NCBI RefSeq assembly: GCF_042453785.1
Contig: NC_091672.1
Coordinates: forward strand, 8,388,501 to 8,452,500
Length of the DNA stretch: 64,000 nt
DNA from: Malus domestica
Taxonomy: Eukaryota > Streptophyta > Magnoliopsida > Rosales > Rosaceae
Reading direction: 5' to 3'
Shown here in pieces: positions 9,855 through 64,000 of the stretch (the stretch's first letter is position 1; the number at the start of each line of letters is the position of its first letter). The translations under genes were made by a program, and so were the position numbers. The notes beneath the pieces are model-generated. The model searched no databases. It saw nothing but the letters and a program-made list of their open reading frames with translations, and was not told the origin of the DNA.

Positions 9855-10403
9855 AATTCTCAAAAGCTTCACACACTCTTGATCAAGACAGTGTGAAGCA
9901 AAACTAATTTATGGTGCCAACAAGAGGTTCATCAATGGAGGGCAACCATAATTCTCAAAAGCTTCACACACTCTTGATCAAGACAGTATGAAGCAAAACC
10001 AATTTATGGTGCCAACAAAAGCTTCATCAATAGAGGGCAACTACAATTCTCAAAAGCTTCACACACTCTTGATCAAGACAGTGTGAAGCAAAACCAATTT
10101 ATGGTGCCTACAAGAGCTTCATCAATGGAGGGCAACCACAATTCTCAAAAGCTTCACACATTCTTGATCAAGACAGTGTGAAGCAAAACCAATTTATGGT
10201 TCCAACAAAAACTTCATCAATGGAAGGCAACTATAATTCTCAAAAGCTTCACACACTCTTGATCAAGATAGTGTGAAGCAAAACCAATTTATGGTGCCAA
10301 CAAAAACTTCATCAATGGGGGGCAACTACAATTCTCAAAAACTTCACACACTCTTGATCAAGACAGTGTGAAGCAAAACCAATTTATGGTGCCAACAAAA
10401 GCT
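9855..10403 (+). repeat. 95-bp minisatellite, about six units
   Basis: AATTCTCAAAAGCTTCACAC recurs at 9855, 9950, 10045, 10140, 10235 and 10330, exactly 95 bases apart. Each unit contains TTGATCAAGACAGTGTGAAG and ATGGTGCCAACAAAAGCTTC. Units differ at only a few positions. Confidence 0.92.
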
Positions 10404-10890
10404 TCACCTACAAAAGCTTCAACTCCAAAGCTTTACCTACAAAAGCTTCAAGTCCAAAGCTTCACCTACAAATCTTCAACACAAAAACTTCACTTACAAA
10501 GTTTCAACATCAAAGCTTCACCTACAAAGCTTCAACTCCAAAGCTTCAACACAAAAGTTTCACCTACAAAGCTTCAACTCCAAAGCTTCACCTACAAAAG
10601 CTTTAACTCCAAAGCTTCACCTACAAAAGCTCCAAGTCCAAAGCTTCACCTACAAAGCTTCAATACAAAAGCTTCACCTATAAAGCTTCAACTCCAAAGC
10701 TTCAACTCCAAGGCTTCACCTACAAAAGCTTCACCTACAAAAGCTTCAACTCCAAAGCTTCACCTACAAAGCTTCAACCCAAAAGCTTCACCTACAAAAG
10801 CTTCACACACTCTTGATCAAGATAGTGTGAAGCAAAATCAATTCATGGTACCCAACAAAGCTTCAACACCAAAGCTTCACCAAAAAGCTT
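10404..10890 (+). repeat. AAGCTTCA-rich short tandem array
   Basis: Degenerate units of the form CAAAGCTTCACCTA and CAAAGCTTCAACTC run on from the 95-bp array. One more partial long unit lies near 10800-10870. The open frame across it encodes only repeated KASPTK/KLHLQSF peptides and reflects the period, not a gene. Confidence 0.85.
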
Positions 10891-11439
10891 AAATATATAT
10901 ATATATTCGAAAATTTGAAAATTAAAAAAAAAAAGATCGAAAAAAAAATTTGCCTAGGTCTCTTCTTCTTTAGGCCTAACAACTTTCATAACAAATATAT
11001 ATGAAGTAGGAGTTTTGGGCTACCACTTAGAAAGGAAAATGGTGAAGTTTTGTTACTTTGGAAACTTGGCTACTAGCAAGACACCTCCTTCGTCAACTCC
11101 CACGACCGGAGACTTGGGGGACTCTTACCATATGCTATTGCACCTTGATACTCGGAAGTCTCACGACCAGTCAATGACTTGGATTTTTCAAGTCTCCAAC
11201 CGAGAAGTTTTCCTCACTCGGGAAATTAAGGGAGCACTACCTCAACCTACATGCTTCACTCACAAAGCTTCAACATACAAGCTTCAACAAAAGAAAAAAT
11301 TCAAAGAACTTAGTGAAGAAGGCTTTGGTGTATTTAACACAATACGTTGAAATGAAGCAAAGCTTATTTATTGACATATCTGATAAGTTACAAATATGTA
11401 CATATACATGAATCAAAATAAACAAATAAGAGGGAGCCT

Positions 11440-12114
11440 TCACAAAGGTTGCTCAGGAGAAGTCTCAACAGTCGGTAGAGCCCCATAAAGAGAAGGCACC
11501 GGAAGATGATCATTCAGAGCCTCAGTACTGAACAGAACCCCAGAAAAATGAGGCATCAGAGGTTGATCATTTAGAGCTTCATTACGCGGTACAGCCCCAG
11601 AAGACGAAGGCAATAAATGCCTTTGGAACAAACCCACAAACCTCTAAGGATCAAGTAAAATCTGACCATCAGATTCCTGCATCTGGTCAAGCTTCCTCTT
11701 CATATTTGTAGCATAGTCATGTGCAAGCATGTGCAACTGTTTATTCTCATGCTTGAGCTCTCTAATCTCTTGTTTGAGACTTATCACTTCAGCTGCCAAT
11801 GATTCAACTTGGCGGGTTCGAGCAAATAGGCGTTGGGCCATATTAGACACAGAACCTGCACACTGAACACTAAGAGCCAAAGAATCCTTAACAGCCAACT
11901 CATCAGACCGTTTGGAAAGTAGTCTATTATCTTTGGGAGTAAGAAGGTTCTTGGCCACCACTGCAGCGGTCATATCATTCTTCATCACAGAGTCTTCAAC
12001 GGTAAGAGGACCAGTAGGGAATAAGAATGATGGGCGTCATATGTTGTCTTGAGGAGGTATGGCTGCCTCTTCACCAAAGTTCAAGTCAAAACGACGGTCG
12101 GATGGGCCAGACAT
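11440..12114 (-). pseudogene. Coiled-coil ORF of the LTR-type element, copy 1 (two stops)
   Basis: Corresponds codon for codon to the 224-codon ORFs at 35299-35973 and 42476-43150, with exactly the same length (675 bases) and no net indel. Two in-frame stops interrupt it: one just after the QDNI motif, where the other copies have Trp, and one after the LLDP segment. The N-terminal [12 protein letters not shown] and C-terminal ETSPEQPL ends are preserved. It lies antisense to the LTR-like repeats. Function unknown. Confidence 0.85.
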
Positions 12115-12586
12115 TTTCAGAAATGATGAAGGAGAAATGAGGTCCAATAAATCTCTGAAGTACGAAAATAAAGGGAAATTTCCTACAAGCAATAACTCTT
12201 TGAATGTACTTCTTACACACAATTGGTGCCCCTATAAAAGAAAAGGCAGCAAGGCCGTTTGTTCAAAAATCGAAAATGCACCACTCTTCGGATTTCGAAA
12301 AGCAGATTTTCCAAAGTAAAATATGTCGACAATCCCCACACGTAACATCAGCTCATCAGGTACCACATATAACTTTGCCAAAAATCTTTGACAAAGTTTA
12401 GACACATAAATTTTGAAGGTCCAGCTACCTTACCATTACCCACAAGGGTAAAGGAATAGCACCACTGCTTGATAACTGGAAAGTCCCTATGTGTGTCAAC
12501 CTCCGTGCTCCGTGGCAAGGCAGACTGGCAAAAATGCCCAACATTTACTCACATTGAGAAAATACTCCTAACAGGATTACTTTCTC

Positions 12587-13034
12587 AAAAATCGAAGAGG
12601 CACCACTCCTCGAATCTCGAGAGCCAGACTCCCACTAGGATTGTTTTCTCAAAAATCGAAGAGGCACCGCGATCTGAATCTCGAAAGCTAGACTCCCACC
12701 AGGATTGCTTTCTCAAAAATCAAAGAGGCACCACTATCCGAATCTCGAGAGCCAGACTCCACCCAGGATTACTTTCTCAAAAATCGAAGAGGCACCGCTA
12801 TCCGAATCTCGAGAGCCAGACTCCTACCAAGATCACTTTCTCAAAAATCGAAGAGGCACCGCTCTCTAAATCTCAAGAGCCAGATCCCTAATATGATTGC
12901 TTGTTAAAAAATCAAAGAGGCAACGCTCTTCGAATCTCGAGAGCCAGATCCCCAACAGAATTACTTTTTCGAAAATCGAAGAGGCACCGCTCTCCAAACT
13001 TCGAGAGCCAGATTTCCTTGGATAAAATTTGTCT
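12587..13034 (+). repeat. 64-bp tandem repeat, seven units
   Basis: AAAAATCGAAGAGGCACC starts at 12587, 12651, 12715, 12779, 12843, 12907 and 12971, a constant 64-base step. Each unit contains the near-palindrome AATCTCGAGAGCCAGA. Relatives of the unit occur in the cargo of both chimeric LINEs. Confidence 0.92.
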
Positions 13035-14666
13035 GCAATCTTCACACGCAACATCAGTTTTCCAGATACCACAAACCATTTTTTTCAAAGTGCTCTGACA
13101 AAGTTAAAACACATGAAGCTTGCAGCTCTCACTAAATTGCTATGACCAAGATGGGTAAAGGAATAGCATTGCTACTTGTTGGGGAAACTCCTATATATGT
13201 CTACCTCCACCCTCCACGGACAGGCAAACCTACAAAAATGCTCAACCATTCCTTATATCTGATAGGGCATTCCCAACGAAGCCTCTCGAAATACTCATCT
13301 TCCTTTCCCCCGATAATACCTCTGCAAACAAGCCACACCAGAGCAAGAGTATCTCAGGGTTAAAAGCAAGAGTATCTCATATCATGCTTTTCCCTGTCTT
13401 TTCCTTTGCCCTTGCTTTTACCTGCAAGAAAATGAGAAAGAAAGCAATTAGTTGGAACCTGAAATCAAATTTTCGATCTGGAACTAATTGCCCAGAACAT
13501 TTGCCTGGTTGCTTACCTAGCATTGCTCTCGAGTACTCATCCTCAACTGTTGTCAAGGTCACGAATCATTTCGGTAAATACTTCATAACAGTTTATACGA
13601 TATTGGCTCTTTACACTGAAATTGCCAAGCATGGATGAGTCGTTGAGAAGTAGTGCTCTGAAGGACCATTCAAATGCAAAGGTTGCGCACCACTTCTGTG
13701 ATGCAAAAGATTGAAGCAGAAGGTTCAACGATGAGCTAGAACAGATCACTATAACACAACGCCCTCCCTGCAAAACCGCATAATCCAGACGGATGAGTCT
13801 AAGTCAAATCCAAGCTCATCATCCCTGCCCTATCCGAAGAGCTCAAGAAACTTCAACAACCTTTCACTAGCAACGTCGCCAAAGAGCAAAGCCTCGCCAT
13901 ACCACATCCACTACTTTGTCAACAACAAAAGTATCCCATATCATCAAGGTCGAACGAACTCTTAATTTGATGGACTTGTTTTGACCCTCAAATTCTTGAG
14001 TCAGCCTTATACTCTGGAAGAAACTAGAAAACCCTTCAGCCCAGTTCAAGAATAAGGTTGTGGAAAGTTACTTCTTCAAAAGAAAAAGTATCTCATATCA
14101 TATCTTCTCCTTTTTCTTCTCTTTATCCTTCATGCTGCCTGTAAGATAGGGAGAATAAGAATAATCAGCCGAAACTCGAAATCAAACTTCTAATCTGAGA
14201 CTGATTGCTTGGAGCTCTGATTTCTTACCTTGTCTGTCACCTCTTTCGGCAGATCTCCTAGCTCGGTGACTTGGGGGACTCCTACTACATGGTTTGTATC
14301 ACGCTTGACCAAGCCTGAAACTACAAGTAAGCTTCAAGTGAAATTGATACATTACCTTGTGCATCTCCACCAATTAAAAATACCACTCTTAGATGGAGGA
14401 AGAGTACTTCCAGAGAAGATGCCACATCTACCTATGAGACAGATAAGGCAAGTGAAGACGATACCACACTTCGGTACTTAGAAGTTTCGTGATTACTCAG
14501 CGGCTTGGATCTTGCAAGTCCCCAACCGATGAGCTTCCCTCACTCGGGAACTTGGGGAGCATTGTTTGTACCATACTTGACCAATCCCGAAACTACCAAG
14601 CACCGGTCAATGTTATACCGTCAATAGCCCATAAGAGTTTCCCTCAAACCAGGAGGCCAATTACAG

Positions 14667-14785
14667 CACGACACGTGTCGACATCAAAAGCCAATCATAG
14701 CGCGACACATGTCAACATCGGAAGCCAATCACAACACAACACGTGTCAATGTCAGAACAAAACTAGAAACTCTCTTCTATAAAAG
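14667..14785 (+). promoter_or_regulatory. LTR promoter: three CCAAT/ACGT-core units and a TATA box
   Basis: A GCCAAT motif followed by ACACGTGTC, ACACATGTC and ACACGTGTC recurs three times about 37-39 bases apart (14667-14755). TATAAAAG follows at 14778-14785. CACGTG and CCAAT are classic plant enhancer motifs, so this reads as the U3 promoter of the LTR. The two chimeric LINEs lack this block. Confidence 0.6.
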
Positions 14786-15059
14786 GAGAACATTCTCCCA
14801 CAATATTTCCTAATGTCATTTATACTAAATCATTCACTAGTACTCACAAAAGGTGAGCTTGAACCTATGTGCTTGTGTAAACCCTTCACAATTAATGAGA
14901 ACTCCTCTACTCCGTGGATGTAGCCAATCTGGGTGAACCACGTACATCTTGTGTTTGCTTCCTTGTCTCTATCCATTTACATACTTATCCACACTAGTGA
15001 CCGGAGCAATCTAGCGAATGTCACAAACTTAACACTTTTTGTTGTACCAAAGTCCTCAC

Positions 15060-15200
15060 TGATTTGTGCATCAACAGTCATCAAACATTTTTGGAGAATC
15101 GGTACAACTCATCCTTAACCATTTTTGCAAAATCGATTCAACTCGTCCTCAACCATTTTTGCATAATCAGTTCAACTAGTCATCAACTTAAACTTCTGCA
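15060..15200 (+). repeat. 34-bp tandem repeat, short array
   Basis: Three or four units of the ACCATTTTTGCA(A/T)AATC / TTCAACTCGTCCTCA type, the same family as 15725-16060. It sits just beyond the right end of the LTR-type element. Confidence 0.8.
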
Positions 15201-25591: not shown

Positions 25592-27462
25592 ATGGGAACT
25601 CCGGAATTCCCAGATCTGGGTAGGCATTGCTACGTCGCCGAGTGCCAGCAGATCGATTTCTTGCCCTTCACCTGCGATAGCTGCCATCAGGTCCTCTCTC
25701 TCTATATATATACACGCATTTGTGAAATTATATACGTCCATATTATATAAATATCGAATGTGCATTGTGTTTGGAAATAGGGATTCTAGTTATATGGATC
25801 GAGATTATCCTCTGTTTGGTTGCTGAGAAAAGTAGAATTACCCAGAAAAAAAAAAAGAAGGGAAATTTTCAAATTTTGGTGATTCGCGGGCCGGGGGGAT
25901 TGCTTGAGAAAACGCAAAATGGGTGTGAATGCACATTGGATTGGATTATGAATTTGTATTTCTTGGAAAAGAAAAGGATGAAATTCCGGATTAAATTTAT
26001 CTTATCGAAATTTGAATGATTGACAATTTTCTGTCAACATTGTCTGGAAGCTTACAATAAATTTCTGATGTTGGCGTTTGCTTGAGTTGAAACTGTCTAG
26101 CTTTATAGGGTGATATTTCATTCCTGCTCTGTATTTTCTTTTGCTATAAATGTTTGTTTCGGATTCATGTTAGATTGACGTGCATGGTGCAATGTTTGGA
26201 TTTAACTGAATTCCAAGTACATTACTGAATATTTACTTATTTGATGTTAAATATCGAGGTGCTAAAGTTGTTTGCTGGGAATAAATTGAATGTTGTAGCT
26301 TCATGTTCTTAGATTACTCTAAGAAGTGGATGTTTTTGAGAAAATAATGACGGTGGAAAGTGTTTGAAATTTACAAACTGATGGTAAAAGGGAAGTGAAA
26401 TGTTTTGCACCCTCGTTCTTCCGGAATGGTGGTGTGATGCATCACGTAGATCATGCAGTTTTTGACCAAATTTAACCAAAGATAGTTAGGGGTTGGAATG
26501 TTTTCCATTTACTTCAATATTTTTAGGTCAGAAAAGCCTTATTTACTTAGGTTAATACAATAGCATAGTCTTCAATCTTTTTACCATCTTCCTAATTGTG
26601 GATTATCATTCACCTGCCTTATTTCTGCTTCTCAAGAATATTCAATGCTTCATACTCACACAAACCTGACATTATGCAGGTATTTTGTTTGGAGCATAGA
26701 AGCTACATTAAGCATAATTGTCCGAAAGGTGACCGAAAAAATGTCACTGTTGTCATCTGTCCCCTCTGTGCCAAAGGAGTTCATCTGATTCCCGATGAAG
26801 ATCCAAACATTACTTGGGAGAGACATGTTAACACTGATTGCGACCCTTCTAATTATGAGAAAGCCACAAAGAAGAAAAAATGCCCTGTCCCTGGCTGCAA
26901 GGAGGTCTTAACATTCTCCAACACAATCAAGTGCAGGGATTGCACGGTAGATCACTGTTTGAAGCACCGATTTGGACTTGATCACAAGTGTCCTGGACCC
27001 AAGAAACCAGAAGCAGGATTTCCCTTTTTGGGTTATTTAAGTAGGAGTAGGAAAGAAGTGTCAAAACCGAATCATGCTCCTGCTGCATCCTCCCCGAATT
27101 GGAGTAGCTTTCTTACTGCAGCTTCATCTTTTCGAGCCTCAGCTGAAGCAAGTGTGGCAAAACTGAGTAGCGAACTTAGCCAAAAGTGGCAGATAGCAAA
27201 GGATGGAACTGGGCAGAGTAGCAGCAGCAGCGGGAGTAGAAACGGGCAGGGTGAGGTGTGTCCTCAGTGTGGTGCTAAGTTTTCCTCAGTCACCACTCTA
27301 GTAGACCACGTAGAAAAAGTTCATGAGAAGGGTGGCAACCGAGCTGCTGCGGTGAAGAAGGTGACAATTGATGCCTGCCCTAAATGTAGTAAGGGATTTC
27401 GTGATCCAGTGGCACTTGTAGAGCACGTTGAGAGAGATCACGGCGGTACTTCAAGAGCATAG
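25592..27462 (+). CDS. AN1/C2H2 zinc-finger stress-associated protein (SAP11/SAP13 type)
   Basis: Two exons, 25592-25690 and 26680-27462, encode 293 residues. Two AN1-type zinc fingers come first (about residues 10-49, split by the intron after CDSCHQ, and about 101-143), each with the spaced Cys/His ligands of the family. Near the C-terminus are two C2H2 fingers, CPQC-x-HVEKVH (about 227-248) and CPKC-x-HVERDH (about 266-287). AN1-AN1-C2H2-C2H2 is the layout of plant stress-associated proteins 11 and 13, proposed to act in abiotic-stress responses, perhaps through ubiquitin pathways. The linker (about 155-225) is Ser/Ala rich with SSSSSGS. The first exon is confirmed by the AN1 motif continuing across the splice. 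Confidence 0.93.
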
Positions 27463-29720: not shown

Positions 29721-32700
29721 ATGAGCGCTGTTTCGGGGGTGATTTCGCGCCAAGTTTTGCCTGCCTGTGGCAGCCTTTGCTTCTTCTGCCCAGCATTGCG
29801 AGCCAGGTCTAGACAGCCGGTTAAGAGATACAAGAAGCTCATTGCTGACATTTTCCCTCGTAACCAGGTTCGTTCTGCTCTCGTATTTTATCTACATGGG
29901 TTTTTGTTGCTTGCATTCGATTCGTTACTTGTTTCCTAAGATAGTTTTACCGTTTGTAAAGAGACTTGTGTGGATGATAATATATGACATCTCTATGTGC
30001 ATTTTTGTGGGTTTGGAAAAGTGTTGATGTTATGGTAGATATGTAGTCCATTGCTGGATGATGGCATTCTGCTGTGAAAACGCAACCATTTGACATGACT
30101 ATCAAAGTAATGATTCTTCCTAAGTGAACTAAAATTGAGAGGACAATTTTTTAACTTGCTACCATCCATTACATAGTCTAATCGAGTAGATTGAGTATTG
30201 AAGAATCGTCTGAATTGTCTGAGTTTTGACAATCCAAGTTCTTGAATCTTCTTGTCAAATAGAATCACTCCTCCAAACCATAAATTTTAACATGGTAACA
30301 TCTAACCAGTACTTGAATTAATTGACAGTTACTTGCCCATCCATTTTGTATTTATAAGCCTACATATATATTTAATATGTTTTGTATGTCGACAAATATT
30401 GAGTTTATTATGGCTTTGAAAACTAAATGAAAAACTAGGTATCTGCTAGTGTTGGATGCCTTGTGAGGCTAATCTAGAGTTATGTAATATGCATCTTTGT
30501 CTAGTAAAATGAGTATTTCGTAACTTTAGAGCACTCATGTAAACAAACGTTGAAACTGATTATGACTATGGTAGCCAATTGAAAGCCCAGTTTCTCATAT
30601 TGTTGTCTGCCATTCGAGGATGAAATGAGGCCTAGAAAGAACTGCTTATCGGTGTAGTAAGTTGTTTATGGCTCTAATTGAAAACAGAGCATTGTAATCG
30701 TTGTGTGCCATGTCGTTATTAACTGTAGGCCTTATGTATGATGTGTTGGCGGTGTTATGTTTTTATCTTCTTATGTACATCATGGTTTTTATTTTTCTTG
30801 AGAATTCAATTCTTATACAATGAGGTTCAGTTGGGTATACAAGAAAGAAATTGTAGGTTGCCTTTTCTTGATGCAACCAATGCCTTGTAGATGAATTTGT
30901 ATGATTTATTTTCTGACAATAAAAGAATTTACTTGTTTCTCTGGTTAATAAATACTAGTTGATTAAACCTTTTTTTCCCATTCTTGTAGTTTTTATTCTA
31001 CTCACCCAAGGGAGAATCCTGTCAGAACAGTCTGTAATAATGTATGTTTGTGTTACTCCCTTTTGGGTTTTTTTCCTGGTCAGAACACATGTTCTTTGAT
31101 GGAAAATCCTGGTTAGACACCATCAAATTTAGTTTCTTTGCATCCCTTAAAAGTATGAAGTTTCCCTATTCTGGCTTTTCTGTGAAATATTGTTCTATTA
31201 ATTTCTTAACATCAATGCAATCACTTTCTTAACGAATGTTGCATTATCAAGTTTCAGGACTTATTCTTTTCACTTTGACAGGAAGAAGGACCAAATGATC
31301 GGAAGATTGGAAAGTTGTGCGAATATGTTGCCAAGAATCCTTTGCGAATCCCAAAGGTATCAATTATATTCTGTAAATCCTAAAAATTTATTTTAACCTT
31401 ATTTGAGGGATCCCAAACATAACCTTATCTGAGGGGCACCTTGTGCGGCGCACTCTGGAATTTATTTCGATGAACTGAACCATCTTATGTTTTAGTTCTT
31501 CATTCAAAGGTCATCCTTGCAAAACATTGGACAAAACCGCTACCACTAAGACATCTAGTTGTAGCCAAGAAAATAGACCAATATGATATTTCAAGAAAAC
31601 ACTAAATTGACACCACTTAATTGAGTGGTTAAGGGTTTCAGATTTAAGTGATTTTTGCAAGTACAATCTTGAGTGAAGACATAAAACAAGGTGAGCTGGA
31701 TCATCAAAATACAAGGGGAGTGGATGTCCCTGAAATAACCTTATTTGAGGGATCCCTCAAGAAGCTCCCTCCATATATGTCCGTCATATATAACTTAACT
31801 CATGATACAACAACAACAACAACAACAAAGCCTTTTCCCACTAAGTGGGGTCGGCTATATGAATCCTAGAACGCCATTGCGCTCATTTGTGTCATGTCCT
31901 CCGTTAGATCCAAGTACTCAAGTCTTTTCTTAGGGTCTCTTCCAAAGTTTTCCTAGGTCTTCCTCTACTCCTTCGGCCCCGAACCTCTGTCCCGTAGTCA
32001 CATTTTCGAACCGGAGCGTCAGTAGACCTTCTTTGCACATGTCCAAACCACCGGAACCGATTTTCTCTCATATTTCCTTCAATTTTGGCTACTCCTACTT
32101 TACCTCGGATAACCTAATTCCCAATCTTATCCTTTCTCGTGTGCCCATACATCCCACGAAGCATCCTCATCTCCGCTACACCCATTTTGTGTACGTTGAT
32201 GCTTCACCGCCCAACATTCTGTGCCATACAACATCGTTGGCCTTATTGCCGTCCTATAAAATTTTCCCTTGAGCTTTAGTGGCCTACGACGGTCACACAA
32301 CACGCCGGATGCACTCTTACACTTCATCCATCCAACTTGTATTCTATGGTTGAGATCTCCATCTAATTCTCCGTTCTCTTGCAAGATAGATCCTAGGTAG
32401 CGAAAACGGTCACTTTTTGTGATCTTCGCTAGATTGCTCCGGTCATTAGTGTGGATAAGTATATAAATGGATATAGATAGGAAAGCAAACACAAGATGTA
32501 TGTGGTTCACCCAGATTGGCTACGTCCACGGAATAGAGGAGTTCTCATTAATTGTGAAGGGTTTACACAAGTACATAGGTTCAAGCTCTCCTTTAGTGAG
32601 TACAAGTGAATGATTTAGTACAAATGACATTAGGAAATATTGTGGGAGAATGATCTCGTAGCCACGAAACTTCTAAGTATCGGAGTGTGGTATCGTCTTG

Positions 32701-35700
32701 ACTTGCCTTTATTTGTCTCATAGGTAGATGTGGCATCTTCTTTGGAAGTATTCTTCCTCCATCCAGGGGTGGTATCTGTAACTGGTGGAGATGCACATGG
32801 TAATGTATCAATTTCACTTGAAGCTTACTTGTAGTTTCATGCTTGGTCAAGCGAGATACAAACCATGTAGTAGGAGTCCCCCAAGTCGCCGAGCTGGGGG
32901 ATCTGCTGAAAGAGGTGACAGACAAGGTAAGCAATCAGAGCTCCGGCTGATTGTTCACATTCTCCCTATCTTGCAGGCAGCATGAAGGATAAAGAGAAGA
33001 AAAATGAGGAGAGATGATATGGGATACTTTTGCTTTTGAAGAAGTAACTTTCCACAGGCTTATTCTTGAACTGGGCTGGAGGGTTTTCTGGTTTCCTCCA
33101 GAGTATAAGGCCGACTGAAGAATTTGAGGGTCAAAACAAGTCCATCAAATCTAGAGTACGTTCGACCCTGCTGATATGGGATACTTTTGCTTTTGATAGA
33201 GTAGTGGATGTATCGGCACGTGTGCTGTTACGCTTGTCTCCACATGCTTCCTTGTATCCTTCTCACTTGCCCTATCTGTTCCTCAGGCAGATGCAGTATC
33301 TTCCCTGGAAGCATAAGATGTTGAAGATGAGTACTCGAGAGCAATGCCAGGTAAGTAATCAGGTAAGGGGTTCCAGGCAGTCAGTTCCTGGCTGGAAGCT
33401 TGATTCCAAGTGCTGACTGATTGCTCTCTTTCTCCTTGTCTTGCAGGTAAGAACAAGGCCAAAGGAAAAGACAGGGAAAAAGCATGATATGGGATACTCT
33501 TGCTTTTAACCCTGATGATATGAGATATTCTTGCTCTAGTATAGCTTGTTTACAGAGGTATTATCGGGGGGGAAGAAAGCTGAATATTTCGAAAGGCTTT
33601 GTTGGGAGTGCCCTCTCAGATAAGAGAAAGGGTTGAGCATTTTTGCAGGTCTGCCTGTCCGTTAGGGATGGAAGTCGACATATATAGGAGTCTCCCTAAC
33701 ATCAAGTAATAATGCTATTCCTTTACCCTGCTTGGTTATAGCACGGTAGTGGGAGCTGCCAGCTTCACATGTTTTAACTCTGTCAGAGCACTTTGAAAAA
33801 GTGGTTTGTGGTATCTGGAAAGCTGATGTTGCGTGTGAAGATTACAGACCTGTCGGGGGTCTGGCTCTCGAGATTCGGAGAACGATGCCTCTTCGATTTT
33901 TGAGAAAGCAATCCTGCTGGGGGTCTGGCTCTCGAGATTCGGAGAGCGGTGTCTCTTCGATTTTTGAGAAAGTAATCATGTTGGGAGTCTGGCTCTCGAG
34001 ATTCGGAGGGCCGTGCCTCTTCGATTTTGGAGCAAGCAATCTTGTTGGGAGTGTTTTCTCGAATGTGAGTAAAGGTTGGGCATGTTTGCTAGTCTACCTT
34101 GCCACGAAGCACAGAGGTTGACACACAGGGACTTTCCAATTATCCAGCAGTGGTACTGTTCCTTTACCCTCTCTTCGATTTTGAGAAAGTAATCATGTTG
34201 GGAGTCTGGCTCTCGAGATTCGGAGGGCGGTGCCTCTTCGATTTTGGAGCAAGCAATCTTGTTGGGAGTGTTTTCTCGAATGTGAGTAAAGGTTGGGCAT
34301 GTTTGCTAGTCTACCTTGCCACGAAGCACAAAGGTTGACACACCGGGACTTTCCAATTATCCAGCAGTAGTACTGTTCCTTTACCCTCTCTTCGATTTTT
34401 GAGAAAGTAATCATGTTGGGAGTCTGGCTCTCGAGATTCGGAGGGCGGTGCCTCTTCGATTTTGGAGCAAGCAATCTTGTTAGGAGTGTTTTCTCGAATG
34501 TGAGTAAAGGTTGGGCATGTTTGCTAGTCTACCTTGCCACGAAGCACAGAGGTTGACACACCGGGACTTTCCAATTATCCAGCAGTGGTACTGTTCCTTT
34601 ACCCTTGTGGGTAATAATATGGTAGCTAGACCTTCAAAATTTATGTGTCTAAACTTTGTTAGTGTTGTTTCTTTGCAATTCTTTTACCCTTCTTGGTCAG
34701 AGCGATGTAGTAGGAGCTGCAAGCTTCACGTGTCTCAACTTTGTCAGAGAACTTTGGCAAAGTTATCTGTGGTACCCATGAGCTACTGTTGCGTGTGGGA
34801 AGTGGGTGATTGAACAGTACGATTCATGTGCTTTCTACTTCGCCAGAAATCTTCGACAGAATGCCCATAATTTCCGCAAAGCTGAGTGTGCGTGTGACAG
34901 GTGCTGACAAGGCTGGAAAAGTAGGTGCCTCTTCGATTTCTGAAATCGGCCCTCGTGGTCTCTGATCAGCCCAGCTTTTGAGAAAGCAAGCCTCTTCGAT
35001 TTCTGAGATCGGCCTTTGTGGTCTTTGAGCAGCCCAGCTTTTGAGAAAGCAAACACCTCTTCGATTTCTGAGATCGACCCTCGTGGTCTCTGAGCAGCCC
35101 AGCTTTTGAGAAAGCAAACGCCTCTTCGATTTCTGAGCAGGCGCCTCTTCGATTTCTGAAGCTTCGTCGAGTGCAGATTTTTATAGGGGCTGACATTAAG
35201 TTCCAAAGCACACTTGAATATCCACCAGTAGAAGCTCCATTCTTGCACTTCTAAGATCTTGATTTGTCCGACCTCTTCTCTCTTCAACACCTTTGAAAAT
35301 GTCTGGCCCCTCCGACTGTCGTTTTGACTTGAACCTTGTTGAAGAGGCAGCCCCGCCTTCTCCAGACAACATATGGCGACCATCCTTCGTCTCCCCTACT
35401 GGTCCTCTTACCGTTGGGGATTCCGTGATGAAGAATGATATGACCGCTGCGGTAGTGGCCAGGAACCTTCTGACTCCCAAAGATAACAGACTACTTTCCA
35501 AACGGTCTGATGAGTTGTCTGTTAAGGATTCTCTGGCTCTCAGTGTTCAGTGTGCAGGTTCTGTGTCTAATATGGCCCAACGCCTATTTGCTCGAACCCG
35601 CCAAGTTGAATCATTGGCGGCTGAAGTGATGAGTCTCAAACAGGAGATTAGAGGGCTCAAGCATGAGAATAAACAGTTGCACCGGCTCGCACATGACTAT

Positions 35701-38700
35701 GCTACAAACATGAAGAGGAAGCTTGACCAGATGAAGGAATCTGATGGTCAGGTTTTACTTGATCATCAGAGATTTGTGGGTTTGTTCCAAAGGCATTTAT
35801 TGCCTTCGTCTTCTGGGGCTGTACCGCGTAATGAAACTCCAAATGATCAATCTCTGATGCCTCATCCTTCTAGGGTTTTGTCCAGTACTGAGGCTCCGAA
35901 TGATCCCCCTCCGGTGCCTTCTCTTTCTGGGGCTCTACCGCCTGCTGAGACTTCTCCTAAGCAACCTTTGTGAAGGCTCCCTCTTGTTTGTTTATTTTGA
36001 CTCAAGTATATGTACATATTTGTAACTTATAGGGGATATCAATAAATAAGCTTTCCTTCATTTCAACGTATTGTGTTAAATACACCAAAGCCTTCTTCGC
36101 TAAGTTCTTTGAATTTTCTTTTGTTGAAGCTTGTATGTCCAAGCTCTGTGAGTGGAGCATATAGGTTGAGGTAGTGTTCCCTTAATTTCCCGAGTGAGGA
36201 AAACTTCTCGGTTGGAGACTTGGAAAATCCAAGTCACTGAGTGGGATCGGCTATATGAATCTTAGAACGCCATTGTGTTCTGTCCTGTGTCATGTCCTCC
36301 GTTAGATCCAAGTACTCTAAGTCTTTTCTTAGGGTCTCTTCCAAAGTTTTCCTAGGTCTTCCTCTGCCCCTTCGGCCCTGAACCTCTGTCCCATAGTCGC
36401 ATCTTCTAATCGGAGCATCAGTAGGCCTTCTTTGCACATGTCCAAACCACCGTAACCGATTTTCTCTCATCTTTCCTTCAATTTCGGCTACTCCTACTTT
36501 ACCCCGGATATCCTCATTCCTAATCTTATCCTTTCTCGTGTGCCCACACATCCAACGAAGCATCCTCATCTCCGCTACACCCATTTTGTGTACGTGTTGA
36601 TGCTTCACAGCCCAACATTCTGTGCCATACAGCATCGCCGGCCTTATTGCCGTTCTATAAAATTTTCCCTTGAGCTTCAGTGGCATACGACGGTCACACA
36701 ACACGCCGGATGCACTCTTCCACTTCATCCATCCAGCTTGTATTCTATGGTTGAGATCTCCATCTAATTCTCCGTTCTTTTGCAAGATAGATCCTAGGTA
36801 ACGAAAACGGTCGCTCTTTGGTATTTCTTGATCTCCGATCCTCACCCCTAACTCGTTTTGGCCTCCATTTGCACTGAACTTGCACTCCATATATTCTGTC
36901 TTTGATCGGCTTAGGCGAAGACCTTTAGATTCCAACACTTCTCTCCAAAGGTTAAGCTTTGCATTTACCCCTTCCTGAGTTTCATCTATCAACACTATAT
37001 CGTCTGCGAAAAGCATACACCAAGGAATATCACCTTGAATATGTCCTGTTAACTCATCCATTACCAACGCAAAAAGGTAAGGACTTAAGGATGAGCCTTG
37101 ATGTAATCCTACAGTTATGGGAAAGCTTTCGGTTTGTCCTTCATGAGTTCTTACGGCAGTCTTTGCTCCTTCATACATATCCTGTATAGCTTGGATATAT
37201 GCTACTCATACTCCTTTCTTCTCTAAAATCCTCCAAAGAATGTCTCTTGGGACCCTATCATACGCTTTTTCCAAATCTATAAAGACCATGTGTAAATCCT
37301 TTTTCCCATCTCTATATCTTTCCATCAATCTTCGTAAGAGATAGATTGCCTCCATGGTTGAGCGCCCTGGCATGAACCCGAATTGGTTGTCCGAAACCCG
37401 TGTCTCTTGCCTCAATCTATGCTCAATGACTTTCTCCCAGAGCTTCATTGTATGACTCATTAGCTTAATTCCCCTATAGTTCATGCAATTTTGTACATCG
37501 CCCTTATTCTTGTAGATAGGCACCAAAGTGCTCATTCGCCACTCATTCGGCATCTTCTTCGTTTTCAAAATCCTATTGAAAAGGTCAGTGAGCCATGTTA
37601 TACCTGTCTCTCCCAAAACTTTCCACACTTCGATTGGTATATCGTCTGGGCCTACTGCTTTTCTATGCTTCATCTTCTTCAAAGCTACACCCACTTCTTC
37701 CTTCCGGATTCTACGATAAAAAGAGTAGTTTCTACACTCTTCTGAGTTACTCAACTCCCCTAAAGAAGCACTCCTTTCATGTCCTTCATTGAAAAGATTA
37801 TGAAAATAACCTTTCCATCTGTCTTTAACCGCGTTCTCTGTAGCAAGAACCTTTCCATCCTCATCCTTGATGCACCTCACTTGGTTTAGGTCCTTTGTCT
37901 TCTTTTCCCTTGCTCTAGCTAGTTTATAGATATCCAACTCTCCTTCTTTGGTATCTAGTCGCTTATACATATCGTCATAAGCCGCTAACTTAGCTTCTCT
38001 CACAGCTTTCTTCGCCTCTTGCTTCGCTTTTCTATACCTTTCACCATTTTCATCGGTCCTATCCTTGTATAAGGCTTTACAACATTCCTTCTTAGCCTTC
38101 ACCTTTGCTTGTACCTCCTCATTCCACCACCAAGATTCCTTTTGGTGTGGGGCAAAGCCCTTGGACTCTCCTAATACCTCTTTTGCTACTTTTCGGATAC
38201 AACTAGCCATGGAATCCCACATTTGGTTAGCTTCCCCCTCTCTATCCCACACACACTGGGTGATTACTTTCTCTTTGAAAATGGTTTGTTTTTCTTCTTT
38301 TAGATTCCACCATCTAGTCCTTGGGCACTTCCAAGTCTTGTTCTTTTTTCTCACTCTTTTGATATGTACATCCATCACCAACAAGCGATGTTGATTAGTC
38401 ACGCTCTCTCCTGGTATAACTTTGCAATCCTTACAAGTTATACGATCCCCTTTCCTCATTAGAAGAAAATCTATTTGTGTTTTTGACGACCCACTCTTGT
38501 AGGTGATCACATGTTCTTCTCTCTTCTTAAAGAAGGTGTTGGCTAAGAAGAGATCATATGCCATTGCAAAATCCAAGATAGCTTCCCCATCCTCGTTTCT
38601 CTCCCCAAAACCATGGCCACCAAGAAAACCTCCATAGTTGCCTGTCTCCCTGCCCACGTGTCCATTTAAATCTCCTCCTATAAATAACTTCTCCGTCTGA

Positions 38701-41700
38701 GCAATTCCTTGCACCAAGTCTCCAAGGTCTTCCCAAAATTTCTCCTTCGAACTCGTATCCAACCCTACTTGAGGTGCGTACGCACTAATCACATTGATAA
38801 GTTCTTGTCCTATTACAATCTTGATTGCCATGATTCTATCTCCTACCCTCTTGACATCTACAACATCTTGTGTCAAGGTCTTGTCCACGATGATGCCAAC
38901 ACCGTTTCTCGTTCTATTTGTGCCCGAATACCATAGTTTAAACCCTGAGTTTTCTAGATCCTTTGCCTTACGACCAACCCACTTAGTTTCTTGTAGGCAC
39001 ATAATATTTATCCTTCTCCTCACCATAACTTCTACTACTTCCATAGATTTTCCCGTCAAGGTTCCTATATTCCACGTTCCTAAACGCATTTTGCTCTCTT
39101 GAACTCTACCCTTCTGTCCTAGCTTCTTCGCCCTTCCCAGTCTAATAGGATCAAAGTACTTCTTTTGTATGTCCCGTGTAAAGTTGATAGGAGCATATGC
39201 TCCCAAACAACTTTGAGTGGAGTCGTTCGAAAAGAAGTTTCTATAGCCCCCTTGCTCATTTAACACTGTATCCGGGTGCCGATGGAGATACAGCGACCCT
39301 TGCTCACTTATCACTGTGCTCAGGCCACACAGCGCGCCACTTACGGGTGACGCCCTAGCTTTAGCGCGATTTCGTTCTGGATTCATTTTCATAAGGATTC
39401 GACGTGATCATGGAGTGCCGGCTGTCGACTACCTGACGCCCTCCCCCTCCTCCTTTATCCGGGCTTGGGACCGGCAATGTAAGATAAACTTACACGGCGG
39501 AGTTATATAACTTAACTCATGATAAAAATAAAAAACAATTATCATCGTAACTCAATAGATAATTTGTTTAAAGAAGAGAGAAGGGAGAAAACACTGGGAA
39601 GTAAGTTGACCGAAAGAGTTGAGAGAAAATAATGGATGTAGTTATTAATAAGTCACAAACTACAAAATCTCAAACGTACATGTTTTTGTTCATTTGTCTA
39701 TTCGCATTTGTTGGGGGCTATGTCATCATGTCAAAAATGCCTTGTTCACAATGATGTGAATTTCTGACCCTTCTAATAGGTTTCTCAAATCATTTCTGAT
39801 ATTGAATTTCAGCAATGGTTCAATCTTCTTATAGTTTTCTTAATTTTTCTGAATGGTGTTACCAATGGAATCAAACCTTTGCCTTGCACCATAAATATGT
39901 GATATGGTTCACTATGCGATTGTTGTCAATAAAAATTCAGCCTTCCTTGCTTCCTTTTTTCTACGAAGTGAAATGTCCTTTGAATTAAAGTATTTTGAAG
40001 GAGTAGCATTTTAGAGATTTTTGTGAAAATCAGTTTAAGAAAAAGTACCACATATGGACAATGTTAAATATTCTTTCTTTTCTGACCAAATTTGAATATT
40101 TTGGGAGCAGATCACAACTTATCTAGAGCAAAGGTGCTACAAGGAATTGAGGAACGAGAACTTTCGATCTGCAAAAATTGTCATGTGCATTTATAACAAA
40201 TTGCTGATTTCTTGTAAGGAGCAAATGTGAGTTCATCCTTATCTAATTTTTTGTTCTATTATCTCTCTCTCTCCTCACACTTTTCAAATAGCAGTATTGA
40301 CTGTTCAAAGAGAGTGCAAATTTTCTTTTATGATGGTCTCATTTGGGGCTTAGAGTTGAGCTCTAAGGTCTAAAACTATAAGCAACACTTTAAACCCTAG
40401 TATTTGCTCTTTTTGACTGTTAATTTGGACTATTGAGTTGGAATGATCTGTTTGAACATGAGGTCCTGATCCACATTCTGGCAACGTATAACATGGCATA
40501 AATCTACCAACAATAGACTCTCTCTCTCTCTCAAGCTCTCTGTTTATTTGTGCTTGTGGGTGTGTATATATAAAAAATATATAAATGCATATTTTTGTGT
40601 GGTTACATGGTTAATTTATATGTTCAGTGACATTTTCCTAGGCCTCTTTTTGCGAGTAGCTTACTCAGCATTATGCATACACTGTTGGATCAAACACGGC
40701 AAGATGAAATGCAAATTATAGGATGTCAGACTCTTTTTAACTTTGTAAATAATCAGGTTTGTAAATTACAAGATACAAAGCTTCACTTTTAATTTATCAC
40801 CAGCCAGCTTGGCTAGAGAAAATTTCAAATTTAATCCGTCTCTCTGATTTTTGCAGACGGATGGAACTTATATGTTCAACTTAGAAGGCTTTATTCCAAA
40901 ATTGTGTCAGATAGCTCAAGAGCCGGGGGAAGATGAAAGGGCAAGTAATCTACGTTCAGCTGCACTCCAAGCCCTTGCTTCAATGGTACTTTTTCATATT
41001 GTTTCTGTTATAAATTTAACACTACACCTTAGCATTAACTTCATGTCATGTTAAATGCATGTGAAATTCAAAATTCAAAAATGAAACATGCTATGGGAGA
41101 TTCTTATTACACTTTGGTTCGATCTATCTTTCTTTTTTCCGTCTCCCCTTTTTCTTGAACTTAGCAAATTTGTCCCCTTTACCATGAATTGTGTCCTTTT
41201 CTGTATTCTTTGCCCGATGAAGCTCTTAAAAGTGAAATAAGATGATATCTCTGTTGGAAATATATGCTTGTCACAGCATGTTTTCTCAAAGTTCAGAATC
41301 TATATCCCTGATGCAAAACTGAGTTTCCTAAATTTTCTTTTGTAGGTTTGGTTTATGGGTGAGAACTCTCATATATCAGTCGAGTTCGATAACGTAAGTA
41401 CATTTGAAGTTTCTTAAATCTTGTTCCAAACTTTCAAGTAATCTTTTGATAGTTCTAGAAGATAAATGTGAATATAATTTTTTGGATCAACCTCAACTAT
41501 AAATTTATTATTTATGCTTTAAAATTTTGCACTTTTTGCATTAAATATAAAATATTAACACCTTCAAGACCTTTTGATAACCATTTCATTTTTTGTTGTT
41601 AGTTTTCACTTTTTGTGGTTGAGATATGAGGAAAGTTATGGGGAGAAAGAAGGGATGGAGAAGGGTGGTGGGAAGGTAGGGAAGAAATAAAGTACAACGA

Positions 41701-44700
41701 ACGAAAACAAAATCTTATAGGGAGAACAACTTCAAATAGTTGTTGGTTTTTAGTTTTCATTTTGTGTATCTCCTCTTATACATTGATTGTACATCTCTCC
41801 CACCATCCTTCCTCCACTCTTCTGGATCCCCTCCTCTCCCCCATATATTTTCCCTATATCTCAAGTACAAAAAATTGAAACCTAAAACTAAAAACGAAAT
41901 GGTTACGGAACGGGAAAGGATAAGATTAGGAATGAGGATATCCGGGGTAAAGTAGGAGTAGCCGAAATTGAAGGAAAGATGAGAGAAAATCGGTTACGGT
42001 GGTTTGGACATGTGCAAAGAAGGCCTACTGACGCTCCGATTAGAAGATGCGACTATGGGACAGAGGTTCATGGCCGAAGGGGTAGAGGAAGACCTAGGAA
42101 AACTTTGGAAGAGACTCTAAGAAAAGACTTAGAGTACTTGGATCTAACGAAGGATATGACACAGGATCGAGCACAATGGCGTTCTAAGATTCATATAGCC
42201 GATCCCACTCAGTGACTTGGATTTTCCAAGTCTCCAACCGAGAAGTTTTCCTCACTCGGGAAATTAAGGGAACACTACCCCAACCTACATGCTCCACTCA
42301 GAAAGCTTCAACATACAAGCTTCAACAAAAGAAAATTCAAAGAACTTAGCGAAGAAGGCTTTGGTGTATTTAACACAATACGTTGAAATGAAGGAAAGCT
42401 TATTTATTGATATCCCCGATAAGCTACAAATATGTACATATACATGAGTCAAAATAAACACACAAGAGGGAGCCTTCACAAAGGTTGCTTAGGAGAAGTC
42501 TCAGCAGTCGGTAGAGCCCCAGAAAGAGAAGGCACCCGAGGGGGATCATTTGGAGCCTCAGTACTGGACAGAACCCTAGAAGGAGGAGGCATCAGAGGTT
42601 GATCATTTGGAGCTTCATTACGCGGTACAGCCCCAGAAGACGAAGGCAATAAATGCCTTTGGAACAAACCCACAAATCTCTGATGATCAAGTAAAACCTG
42701 ACCATCAGTTTCCTTCATCTGGTCAAGCTTCCTCTTCATGTTTGTAGCATAGTCATGTGCGAGCCGGTGCAACTGTTTATTCTCATGCTTGAGCCCCCTA
42801 ATCTCCTGTTTGAGACTCATCACTTCAGCCGCCAATGATTCAACTTGGCGGGTTCGAGCAAATAGGCGTTGGGCCATATTAGACACAGAACCTGCACACT
42901 GAACACTGAGAGCCAGCGAATCCTTAACAGCTAACTCATCAGACCGTTTGGAAAGTAGTCTGTTATCTTTGGGAGTGAGAAGGTTCCTGGCCACCACCGC
43001 AGCGGTCATATCATTCTTCATCACGGAATCCCCAACGGTAAGAGGACCAATAGGGGAGACGAAGGATGGGCGCCATATGTTGTCTGGAGAAGGCGGGGCT
43101 GCCTCTTCAACAAGGTTCAAGTCAAAACGACGGTCGGAGGGGCCAGACATTTTCAAAGGTGTTGAAGAGAGAAGAGGTCGGACAAATCAAGATCTTAGAA
43201 GTGCAAGAATGAAGCTTCTACTGGTGGAGATTCAAGTGTGCTTTGGAACTTAATGCCAGCCCCTATAAAAATCTGCACTCGACGGAGCTTCAGAAATCGA
43301 AGAGGCGCCTGCTCAGAAATCGAAGAGGCGTTTGCTTTCTCAAAAGCTGGGCTGCTTAGAGATCACGAGGGTTGATCTCAGAAATCGAAGAGGCGTTTGC
43401 TTTCTCAAAAGTTGGGCTGCTCAAAGACCACGAAGGCCGATCTCAGAAATCGAAGAGGCGCTGGCTTTCTCAAAAGCTGGGCTCCCCAGAGACCACGAGG
43501 GCCGATCTCAGAAATCGAAGAGGCACCTACTTTTCCAGCCTTGTCAGCACCTGTCACACGCACACTCAGCTTTGCGGAAATTATGGGCATTCTGTCAAAG
43601 ACTTCTGGGGAAGTAGAAAACACATGAATCTTACTGTTCAATCACCCACTTCCCACACGCAACAATAGCTCATGGGTACCACATATAACTTTGCCAAAGT
43701 TCTCTGCCAAAGTTGAGCACGTGAAGCTTGCAGCTCCCACTACATCGCTCTGACCAAGAAGGGTAAAAGAATAGCCAAGAAACAGCACTAACAAAGTTTA
43801 GACCCATAAATTTTGAAGGTCTAGCTACCATATTATTACCCACAAGGGTAAAGGAACAGTACCACTGCTGGATAATTGGAAAGTCCCTGTGTGTCAACCT
43901 CTGTGCTTCGTGGCAAGGTAGACTAGCAAACATGCCCAACCTTTACTCACATTCGAGAAAACACTCCCAATAAGATTGCTTGCTCCAAAATCGAAGAGGC
44001 ACCGTCCTCCGAATCTCAAGAGCCAGACTCCCAACATGACTACTTTCTTAAAAATCGAAGAGAGGGTAAAGGAACAGTACCATTGCTGGATAATTGGAAA
44101 GTCCCTGTGTGTCAACCTCTGTGCTTCGTGGCAAGGTAGACTAGCAAACATGCCCAACCTTTACTCACATTCGAGAAAACACTCCCAACAAGATTGCTTG
44201 CTCCAAAATCGAAGAGGCACCGCCCTCCGAATCTCGAGAGCCAGACTCCCAACATGATTACTTTCTCAAAAATCGAAGAGACACTGCTCCCCGAATCTCG
44301 AGAGCCAGACCCCCAGCATGATTGCTTTCTCAAAAATCGATGAGGCATCGTTCTCCGAATCAATCGAAGAGGCGCTCGCTTTCTCAAAAGCTGGGCTGCT
44401 CAGAGACCACGAGGGCCGATCTCAGAATTCGAAGAGGCACCTACTTTTCTAGCCTTGTCAGCACCTGTCACACGCACACTCAGCTTTGCAGAAATTATGG
44501 GCATTCTGTCGAAGACTTCTGGTGAAGTAGAAAGCACATGAATCTTACTGTTCAATCACCCACTTCCCACACGCAACAATAGCTCATGGGTACCACAGAT
44601 AACTTTGCCAAAGTTCTCTGCCAAAGTTGAGCACGTGAAGCTTGCAGCTCCCACTACATCGCTCTGACCAAGAAAGGTAAAAGAATAGCAAAGAAACAGC

Positions 44701-47700
44701 ACTAACAAAGTTTAGACACATAAATTTTGAAGGTCTAGCTACCATATTATTACCCACAAGGGTAAAGGAACAGTACCACTGCTGGATAATTGGAAAGTCC
44801 CTGTGTGTCAACCTCTGTGCTTCGTGGCAAGGTAGACTAGCAAACATGCCCAACCTTTACTCACATTCGAGAAAACACTCCCAACAAGATTGCTTGCTCC
44901 AAAATCGAAAAGGCACCGTCCTCCGAATCTCGAGAGCCAGACTCCCAACATGACTACTTTCTCAAAATCGAAGAGAGGGTAAAGGAATAGTACCATTGCT
45001 GGATAATTGGAAAGTCCTGTGTGTCAACCTTTGTGCTTCGTGGCAAGGTAGACTAGCAAACATGCCCAACCTTTACTCACATTCGAGACAACACTCCCAA
45101 CAAGATTGCATGCTCGAAAATCGAAGAGGCACCGCCCTCCGAATCTCGAGAGCCAGACTCCCAACATGATTACTGCCTCAAAAATCGAAGAGACACTGCT
45201 CTCCGAATCTCGAGAGTCAGACCCCCAGCATGATTGCTTTCTCAAAAATCGAAGAGGCATCGTTCTCCGAATCTCGAGAGCCAGATACCACAGACCACTT
45301 TTTCAAAGTGCTCTGACAGAGTTAAAACATGTGAAACTGGCAGCTCCCACTACCGTGCTATGACCAAGCAGGGTAAAGGAATAGCATTACTACTTGTTGT
45401 TAGGGAGACTCCTATATATGTCGACCTCCATCCCCAACGGACAGGCAGACCTGCAAAAATGCTCAACCCTTCATCATATCTGAGAGGGCACTCCCAACGA
45501 AGCCTTTCGAAATATTCAGCTTTCTTTCCCCCCGATAATACCTCTGCAAACAAGCTATACTAGAGCAAGAATATCTCATATCATTAGGGTTAAAAGCAAG
45601 AGTATCCCATATCATGCTTTTTCCCTGTCTTTTCTTTTGGCCTTGTTTTTACCTGCAAGACAAGGAGAAAGAGAGCAATCAGTCAGCACTTGGAATCAAG
45701 CTTCCAGCCAGGAACTGACTGCCTGGAACCCCTTACCTGATTACTTACCTGGCATTGCTCTCGAGTACTCATCTTCAACATCTTATGTTTCCAGGGAAGA
45801 TTCCGCATCTGCTTGAGGAACAGATAGGGCAAGTGCGAAGGATACAAGGAAGCATGTGGAGACAAGCGTAACAGCACACGTGCCGATACATCCATTACTC
45901 TGTCAAAAGCAAAAGTATCCCATATCAGCAGGGTGGAACGTACTCTAGATTTGATGGACTTGTTTTGACCCTCAAATTCTTCAGTCGGTCTTATACTCTG
46001 GAGGAAACCAGAAAACCCTCCAGCTCAGTTCAAGAATAAGCCTGTGGAAAGTTACTTCTTCAAAAGCAAAAGTATCTCATATCATCTCTTCTCATTTTTC
46101 TTCTCTTTATCCTTCATGCTGCTGCAAGATGGGGAGAAGGTGAACAATCAGTCGGAGCTCTGATTGCTTACCTTGTCTGTCACCTCTTTCAGCAGACCCC
46201 CTAGCTCGGCGACTTGGGGGACTCCTACTACATGGTTTGTATCGCGCTTGACCAAGCCTGAAACTACAAGTAAGCTTCAAGTGAAATTGATACATTACCT
46301 TGTGCATCTCCACCAGTTAAAGATACCACCCCTGGATGGAGGAAGAGTACTTCCAGAGAAGATGCCACATCTACCTATGAGACAGATAAGGCAAGTCAAG
46401 ACGACACCACACTCCGATACTTAGAAGTTTCGTGATTACGAGATCATTCTCCCACAATATTTCCTAATGTCATTTGTACTAAATCATTCACTTGTACTCA
46501 CTAAAGGAGAGCTTGAACCTATGTACTTGTGTAAACCCTTCACAATTAATGAGAACTCTTCTATTCCGTGGACGTAGCCAATCTGGGTGAACCACGTACA
46601 TCTTGTGTTTGCTTTCCTATCTCTATCCATTTATATACTTATCCACACTAATGACCGGAGCAATCTAGCGAAGATCACAAAAAGCGACCGTTTTCGCTAC
46701 CTAGGATCTATCTTGCAAGAGAACGGAGAATTAGATGGAGATCTCAACCATAGAATACGAGCTGGATGGAAAGAGTGCATCCGGCGTGTTGTGTGACCGT
46801 CGTAGGCCACTGAAGCTCAAGGGAAAATTTTATAGGACGGCAATAAGGCCAGCGATGTTGTATGGCACAGAATGTTGGGTGGTGAAGCATCAACACGTAC
46901 ACAAAATGGGTGTAGCGGAGATGAGGATGCTTCGTGGGATGTGTGGGCACACGAGAAAGGATAAGATTGGGAATGAGGATATCCGAGGTAAAGTAGGAGT
47001 AGCCGAAATTGTAGGAAAGATGAGAGAAAATCGGCTCCGGTGATTTGGACATGTGCAAAGAAGCCCGACTGACGCTCCGGTTCGAAGATGTGACTACGGG
47101 ACAGAGGTTCAGGGCCGAAGGGGTAGAGGAAGACCTAGGAAAACTTTGGAAGAGACTCTAAGAAAAGACTTAGAGTACTTGGATCTAACGGAGGACATGA
47201 CACAAAACCGAGCGCAATGGCGTTCTAGGATTCATATAGCCGACCCCACTTAGTGGGAAAAGGCTTTGTTGTTGTTGTTGTTGTTTGTATCTTTCAGATG
47301 GTTAAAATTTTCTAGCTGCTAGAATTTTTTATTTTTTTTATAATTATTAACTTATGAGTTATGACTAGCCTAAGGCTCCATTTTGATTGCCAATATTAAA
47401 TCTGAGGGATTGTCAACTTTGACTACCCATTTCAGTTAATGTTACAGGTTGAATTGATTGAATATATGATAACATTGTGAAAAAAAAAAAAAATGGTTAC
47501 AGGTTGAATTGGTTCTTCAGTTTTATGATTGTGTTACTCGTCACTCATTTACTTCTCGAAGTCATTCTTATGAAGCAGCTAGAACGAATGCTACCTAAAC
47601 CTCTTGACATTGGTCTTTTTCCATATTAATATACAGATTGTTGTAGTTGTCTTGGAAAATTATGGTGGCTTAAATAAAACTTCAGAGAACCTTGAAGGTT

Positions 47701-63997: not shown

Positions 63998-64000
63998 TTT

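Follow-up and report, generated by a model that had tools for sequence, protein, structure and literature searches.

In a 64,000-nucleotide stretch of the apple (Malus domestica) genome (hereafter the window; assembly GCF_042453785.1, contig NC_091672.1, positions 8,388,501 to 8,452,500 of the forward strand), we found a composite retrotransposon that belongs to a propagating family of long interspersed nuclear elements (LINEs). Very probably, the family is of the RTE type, has exchanged the usual short 3′ end of its LINE for about 4.4 kb, made up of a piece of a long terminal repeat (LTR) element and a 612-nt LINE 3′ end with a (TTG)n tail, and has spread by target-primed reverse transcription. 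The window copy lies at 31787-39524 on the minus strand and consists of a LINE, then LTR-retrotransposon DNA (the cargo), then a second LINE 3′ end.

The inner LINE runs on the minus strand from 39503/39504 to about 36235, its exact 3′ end being uncertain within about 36235-36240; its 5′ end is full length, while the terminal nucleotides and the (TTG)n tail are missing from its 3′ end. The cargo follows at 32420-36234 (minus strand). The outer LINE 3′ end (31808-32419, minus strand, 612 nt) shows (CAA)n on the plus strand from about 31808 and LINE similarity up to 32419, and across 586 bp it shares 92.5% identity with its inner counterpart (36235-36820). A perfect target-site duplication (TSD), TATATAACTTAACTCATGATA, abuts the outer ends of the unit at 31787-31807 and 39504-39524, with 21/21 bases identical, and base 39504 of the right copy may be the LINE's. 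The TSD score at this locus is 21, compared with a maximum of 12 among 420 mismatched flank pairs. A preliminary description of this DNA had placed LTR-element DNA between the LINE and a duplicated LINE 3′ end, with a perfect 21-bp TSD at the outer ends and not at the cargo; the identity of this TSD, the 92.5%-identical LINE ends and the match of the cargo to free LTR elements bear out this arrangement. The missing tail of the inner LINE was not among the points of that description.

RTE-clade LINEs usually have a short 3′ untranslated region (UTR), a usual feature and not a defining one. We regard the LINE as probably of the RTE type, judged by its frame content, the (TTG)n end, the TSDs with 5′ truncation and a sub-threshold twister ribozyme match, and not by a reverse-transcriptase tree. 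Its frame (36234-39407, minus strand) has Pfam matches to Exo_endo_phos (2.1e-9) and RVT_1 (7.6e-15 and 1.3e-15). Like plant RTE LINEs, the element has endonuclease and reverse transcriptase in a single frame and a (TTG)n 3′ repeat, seen in the window and in 20/20 further copies; unlike them, it has about 4.4 kb of mostly LTR-derived DNA from its stop (36234-36236) to the (TTG)n end (about 31808). In the consulted parts of the literature, a (TTG)n 3′ end is listed for plant RTE (PMC3747384), and a twister motif at the 5′ end is stated for the RTE superfamily (PMC7761336); the match here is below the gathering score.

The spread of the composite was assessed in one assembly (651 Mb, 19 contigs; the window is on contig C12), with copies picked by similarity to the window copy. 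With a 301-base query across the inner junction, the best 40 of 729 first-look candidates were all full length at 99-100% identity, and with a 351-base query across the outer junction, the best 40 of 2099 first-look candidates all reached 99-100%, and 38 matched along its full length. Twenty of the 39 inner-junction rows outside the window were read as 9.8-kb stretches, giving 21 scored copies when the window is counted. Each of the 20 further copies retained both junctions and the (CAA)n end, and their flanks differed. The LINE 5′ end was reached by 7/20, one of them (L028) without an internal stretch of about 1.2 kb, while 13/20 were 5′-truncated at various points; copy L011 has a 5′ inversion, and copy L013 is inserted inside another composite. 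TSDs of 16-22 bp with at most one mismatch were found in 10/21 copies (window, L010, L013, L014, L016, L018, L019, L023, L025 and L028), and each of the eight copies reaching the LINE 5′ end, the window included, has its own. For the remaining 19 inner-junction rows, a 311-bp stretch was read per row, and the expected LINE 5′ end was present in 10/19.

Given that the junctions recur with different flanks and their own TSDs, and that the (CAA)n end is kept, the composite is a propagating LINE family; the same TSDs, together with the fixed 3′ end and the variable 5′ truncation, argue for target-primed reverse transcription. Recurrence of the junctions with distinct TSDs was the test put forward in the preliminary description, and it came out positive (40/40 scored rows per junction; 8/8 5′-complete copies with their own TSD), which also supports its proposal that reverse transcription inserted LINE, cargo and duplicated 3′ end together. 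The high identity of the copies could also suggest segmental duplications or LTR-driven copies in place of LINE insertions, but the different flanks, own TSDs, fixed (CAA)n end and variable 5′ truncation make this extremely improbable, and segmental duplication was rejected by the flanks and TSDs of the copies read. At another locus (L030, C8:11474100-11478100), beyond a nested composite, the cargo-to-tail stretch of the host copy is doubled in tandem; both tandem stretches finish with the same 32709-31808 block, perhaps through unequal crossing-over.

The cargo was also sought at LINE 5′ ends. With a LINE 5′-end query, the best 40 of 1623 candidates were all whole length at 99-100% identity. 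Twelve of these 40 are known composites (the window, five 9.8-kb copies and six rows with the 5′ end read); among the other 28, 20 were read at the inner junction, with the cargo present in 20/20, and three more are linked by position to outer-junction rows. Of the best 40 LINE 5′ ends, 35 were thus covered, 32 having the cargo by sequence and three by position. The query was taken from the window copy, so the window's own subfamily is favoured; the 92.5% identity between the outer and inner LINE ends implies further LINE subfamilies. Among the LINE 5′ ends tested, the cargo is a standing part of the element. Of the earlier picture of the cargo as a passenger, co-mobilisation stands, whereas an occasional passenger does not fit. 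We tentatively suggest, as a possibility well short of an expectation, that the fusion, in which the LTR-derived segment came to supply the stop codon of the frame and the 3′ UTR, gave rise to a new autonomous LINE, that the composite is the main or only mobile form of its LINE subfamily and has displaced its parent, and that the cargo, with its antisense ORF, repeats and LTR fragment, helps, for example through transcript stability or escape from silencing. A further LINE 5′ end belonging to this subfamily was seen about 0.65 kb from the composite in L020 (C4:26787957-26797756), at 9247-9800 of that stretch.

The cargo matches free DNA in the window at 11165-15027 (main blocks 77-93%), part of a free LTR-element relative (11165-15076, plus strand) that has no LINE attached and ends at the LTR terminus. 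With an LTR query, the best 40 of 5521 first-look candidates were all at 93-100%. The free elements share one end point, TGCATCAACA or close to it, with different flanks after it (12/12 loci read). Two free elements were read further and both match the cargo; one of them, L044, has RNase H and integrase, then repeats, an antisense open reading frame (ORF) and the LTR end shared by the free elements. The LTR of this family is defined by its 3′ end, no element with both LTRs being among those read. From these matches, the cargo, which is in LTR-sense orientation, appears to derive from a free Ty3/gypsy-type family, from the region behind pol into the 3′ LTR. Ahead of the free relative in the window, tandem repeats with units of 14 bp and 95 bp occupy 9745-10900. 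HODOR, a high-copy repeat of apple (PMC13334179, PMC6901071), was also considered as a candidate identity of the cargo.

Within the cargo, tandem-repeat arrays with periods of about 64-65 bp and 217 bp occupy 33825-35160 (minus strand), and a 224-amino-acid ORF lies at 35299-35973 on the plus strand, antisense to both the LINE and the LTR element. No Pfam family was found for this ORF at the cut-off (best E 0.015). It is intact in 17/20 other copies and in a second composite in the window; one stop each was found in L009 and L024, a one-base shift in L014 and two stops in the free relative. Retand Ty3/gypsy elements also have an antisense ORF and tandem repeats between pol and the 3′ LTR (PMC11963269), a likeness that concerns the cargo only and is seen in L044. 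As described in the consulted part of that paper, a TRP28 domain is present in the antisense ORF of 97% of Retand clusters. Since Pfam did not find TRP28 (PF04195) in the window ORF or the L044 ORF, we did not file the cargo source as Retand.

The ends of the cargo were compared with the LTR of the free family. The stretch 32420-32657 matches the last part of the LTR, minus its final 50 bp or so, which puts the outer junction inside the LTR, about 50 bp from its end. A stretch of about 285 bp that includes a TATA box and occurs in 12/12 free copies is missing from the LTR side of the cargo; this gap pattern was found in the window, in 19/20 other copies and in the second composite, and not in L021. 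Splicing as the source of the gap was rejected, no GT-AG ends being seen by eye in the alignment. That LTR DNA sits between two LINE parts might suggest the insertion of a whole LTR element into a resident LINE, but 586 bp of LINE is present on both sides, the outer junction falls inside an LTR terminus that is well defined in 12/12 free copies, and no LTR pair stands at the cargo ends. We consider this explanation very improbable, and it was rejected once the LTR terminus had been mapped.

For the origin of the fusion, two template jumps are the best-fitting of the proposed routes, and read-through would fit less well. For the first route, which we give about an even chance, a single insertion would have begun at a LINE 3′ end, switched to the RNA of an LTR element, possibly entering it at the poly(A) end, and finally moved on to the 3′ portion of a different LINE RNA without its last nucleotides. 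Two jumps would explain the missing inner tail, the CAAA at the outer join and the position inside the LTR. At the outer junction, the LTR and the LINE have CAAA in common next to a single mismatch, or else a run of A was added, and the inner LINE stops inside a short hairpin, CCCAC/GUGGG. In Magnaporthe, LINE chimeras of three parts with terminal repeats have been described (PMC2104539). Against this route, a deletion or a third switch would also be needed to remove about 285 bp on the LTR side of the cargo. The LINE 3′ end shows no notable fold (z -1.44), and no founder copy was identified.

In 3′ transduction by L1, downstream DNA is carried along and re-inserted, and the LINE's own tail is kept before the transduced DNA. 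The apple composite likewise carries downstream DNA along, but its inner LINE is tail-less and a second LINE 3′ end closes the unit; the tail is absent from the inner junction in 20/20 copies and in 20/20 further junctions. A transduction origin, in which the LINE read through LTR-element DNA to the (TTG)n end of an older 5′-truncated LINE and a later deletion took the first tail, therefore seems to us distinctly less probable than two jumps. Two separate LINE insertions would be expected to leave this order of LINE, cargo and LINE 3′ end, together with the 92.5% identity, and nested composites exist. Nonetheless, this route needs an extra deletion that removed the tail and ended at or next to the last codon of the frame, as well as a further loss inside the cargo, and the start of the outer LINE about 50 bp inside the LTR end, which a chance 5′-truncated insertion could give, is predicted by nothing. 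Of the two routes considered in the preliminary description, the favoured read-through thus accounts less well for the tail-less inner junction, and its alternative, template switching, fits better.

Template switching has also been given as the source of L1 chimeras and of the tripartite chimeras of Magnaporthe (PMC2104539, PMC13174262). The apple composite resembles these in fusing parts of different RNAs, and a Magnaporthe tripartite chimera is likewise flanked by repeats, of 14 bp; it differs in that it keeps the LINE frame and has multiplied into a family with a subfamily. SVA and LAVA are also fused elements multiplied by LINE machinery (PMC4432496, PMC7353768), but they are described there as non-autonomous, whereas the apple composite has its own endonuclease and reverse-transcriptase frame.

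The LINE frame runs to the inner junction, with its final stop TGA at 36234-36236. At the homologous site, the tailed outer copy reads ACT TAG and the composite ACT CAG TGA, so the stop codon forms at the cargo join. The window copy has one earlier in-frame stop, and 1057 codons are open in 3/8 full or near-full (within 70 bp) copies (window, L010, L013, L014, L018, L019, L022 and L025; L028, with its inner deletion, was left out). Changes were counted in the two LINE 3′ ends of the same 20 copies, with the window included and L017 left out, since its inner end is truncated and the outer copy had been taken in its place. The inner end had 16 synonymous changes, 17 amino-acid changes and no stops; the non-coding outer end had 13 synonymous, 39 amino-acid and 4 stop changes, with one multi-change codon uncounted. 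The synonymous:other counts of 16:17 and 13:43 differ (Fisher p 0.019), which suggests that the composite's own frame is under selection only at the 3′ end.

The usual twister cut falls between U and A. At the LINE 5′ end, the Rfam Twister-P1 match spans 39441-39509 on the minus strand (53.9 bits, E 7.3e-12), and from the sequence the cut would lie between 39505 and 39504. In the eight 5′-complete copies and in 10 further 5′ ends read, the plus strand has T at 39504, as expected of a LINE that starts there, and in L010 and L028 the equivalent base stands outside the TSD. A review, citing work in preparation, mentions truncated, catalytically competent twister motifs conserved at the 5′ ends of RTE retrotransposons (PMC7761336). 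In the mobility model that we propose, transcription would begin upstream of the LINE, the twister ribozyme would trim the RNA 5′ end at base 39504, and the frame ended by the join-formed stop would yield the endonuclease and reverse transcriptase. The enzyme would then start copying at the terminal (TTG)n LINE end, and because of this starting point the cargo would act as a long 3′ UTR that is copied each time.

Several observations weigh against this account. No TSD was found in 8/21 copies (L011, L012, L015, L017, L021, L022, L024 and L027); L020 and L026 have only a 10-bp TSD, a score reached by 1.2% of mismatched pairs, and the 17-bp TSD of L009 lies within an AT repeat. All 11 copies without a clear 16-22-bp TSD are 5′-truncated. 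Young copies are over-represented, because copies were chosen by similarity to the window. No cargo-free LINE was found among the 20 inner junctions read, no search aimed at cargo-free LINEs having been made. Twister-P1 was matched in 7/7 other copies with the 5′ end, but all eight matches, at 46-62 bits, are under the gathering score of 67.2. Over the whole frame, again without L017, 41 synonymous changes stand against 93 amino-acid and 7 stop changes (41:100), a synonymous share no different from that of the non-coding outer end (p 0.48), so that selection is suggested by one of two tests. Since the frame is broken in many copies, spread in trans is possible.

On this last explanation, the composites were mostly moved by the enzymes of other LINEs and their own frame was not needed. 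We think it rather unlikely: the interrupted or truncated frames of most copies and the whole-frame ratio speak for it, and against it stand the copies open over 1057 codons and the smaller number of amino-acid changes in the inner coding 3′ end than in its non-coding twin.

The mean pairwise difference between copies is 0.55-1.46%, depending on the segment, and these low values are partly due to the picking of similar copies. The second composite in the window (41910-47285, plus strand) is 5′-truncated, keeps both junctions and is no more than 2.4 kb from the first; inspection by eye showed no TSD next to it. It is 94-97% identical to the first in the main blocks and is therefore probably older. 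Five copies with altered cargo tandem repeats (L021, L024, L025, L026 and L028) form one branch, with support of 95/96 and presence in 93% of 200 bootstrap trees, the bootstrap not having settled. Given that this altered-repeat subfamily forms one branch, past activity of more than one source copy is probable.

Elsewhere in the window, a leucine-rich-repeat receptor kinase frame lies at 61613-64000 (minus strand), where it is cut by the window end, and an AN1/C2H2 zinc-finger frame of the ZFAND2 type at 26596-27459 (plus strand). Repeat annotation would probably split copies of the composite into LINE and LTR parts.

A literature search at title and abstract level, partly off-target and not a demonstration of absence from print, found no LINE family like the composite. 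In the consulted parts of the cited papers, LINE chimeras are single insertions or helper-dependent composites. Here, the chimera retained the LINE frame, acquired an LTR-derived 3′ UTR of 4 kb and spread genome-wide, and such fusions can thus become successful new elements. Each copy pairs a coding with a non-coding LINE 3′ end, which provides a built-in selection control for a recently active LINE. If the model is true, RTE copying tolerates a very long insert ahead of the 3′ recognition end, only that end being required, and LINE 3′ ends can be swapped wholesale.

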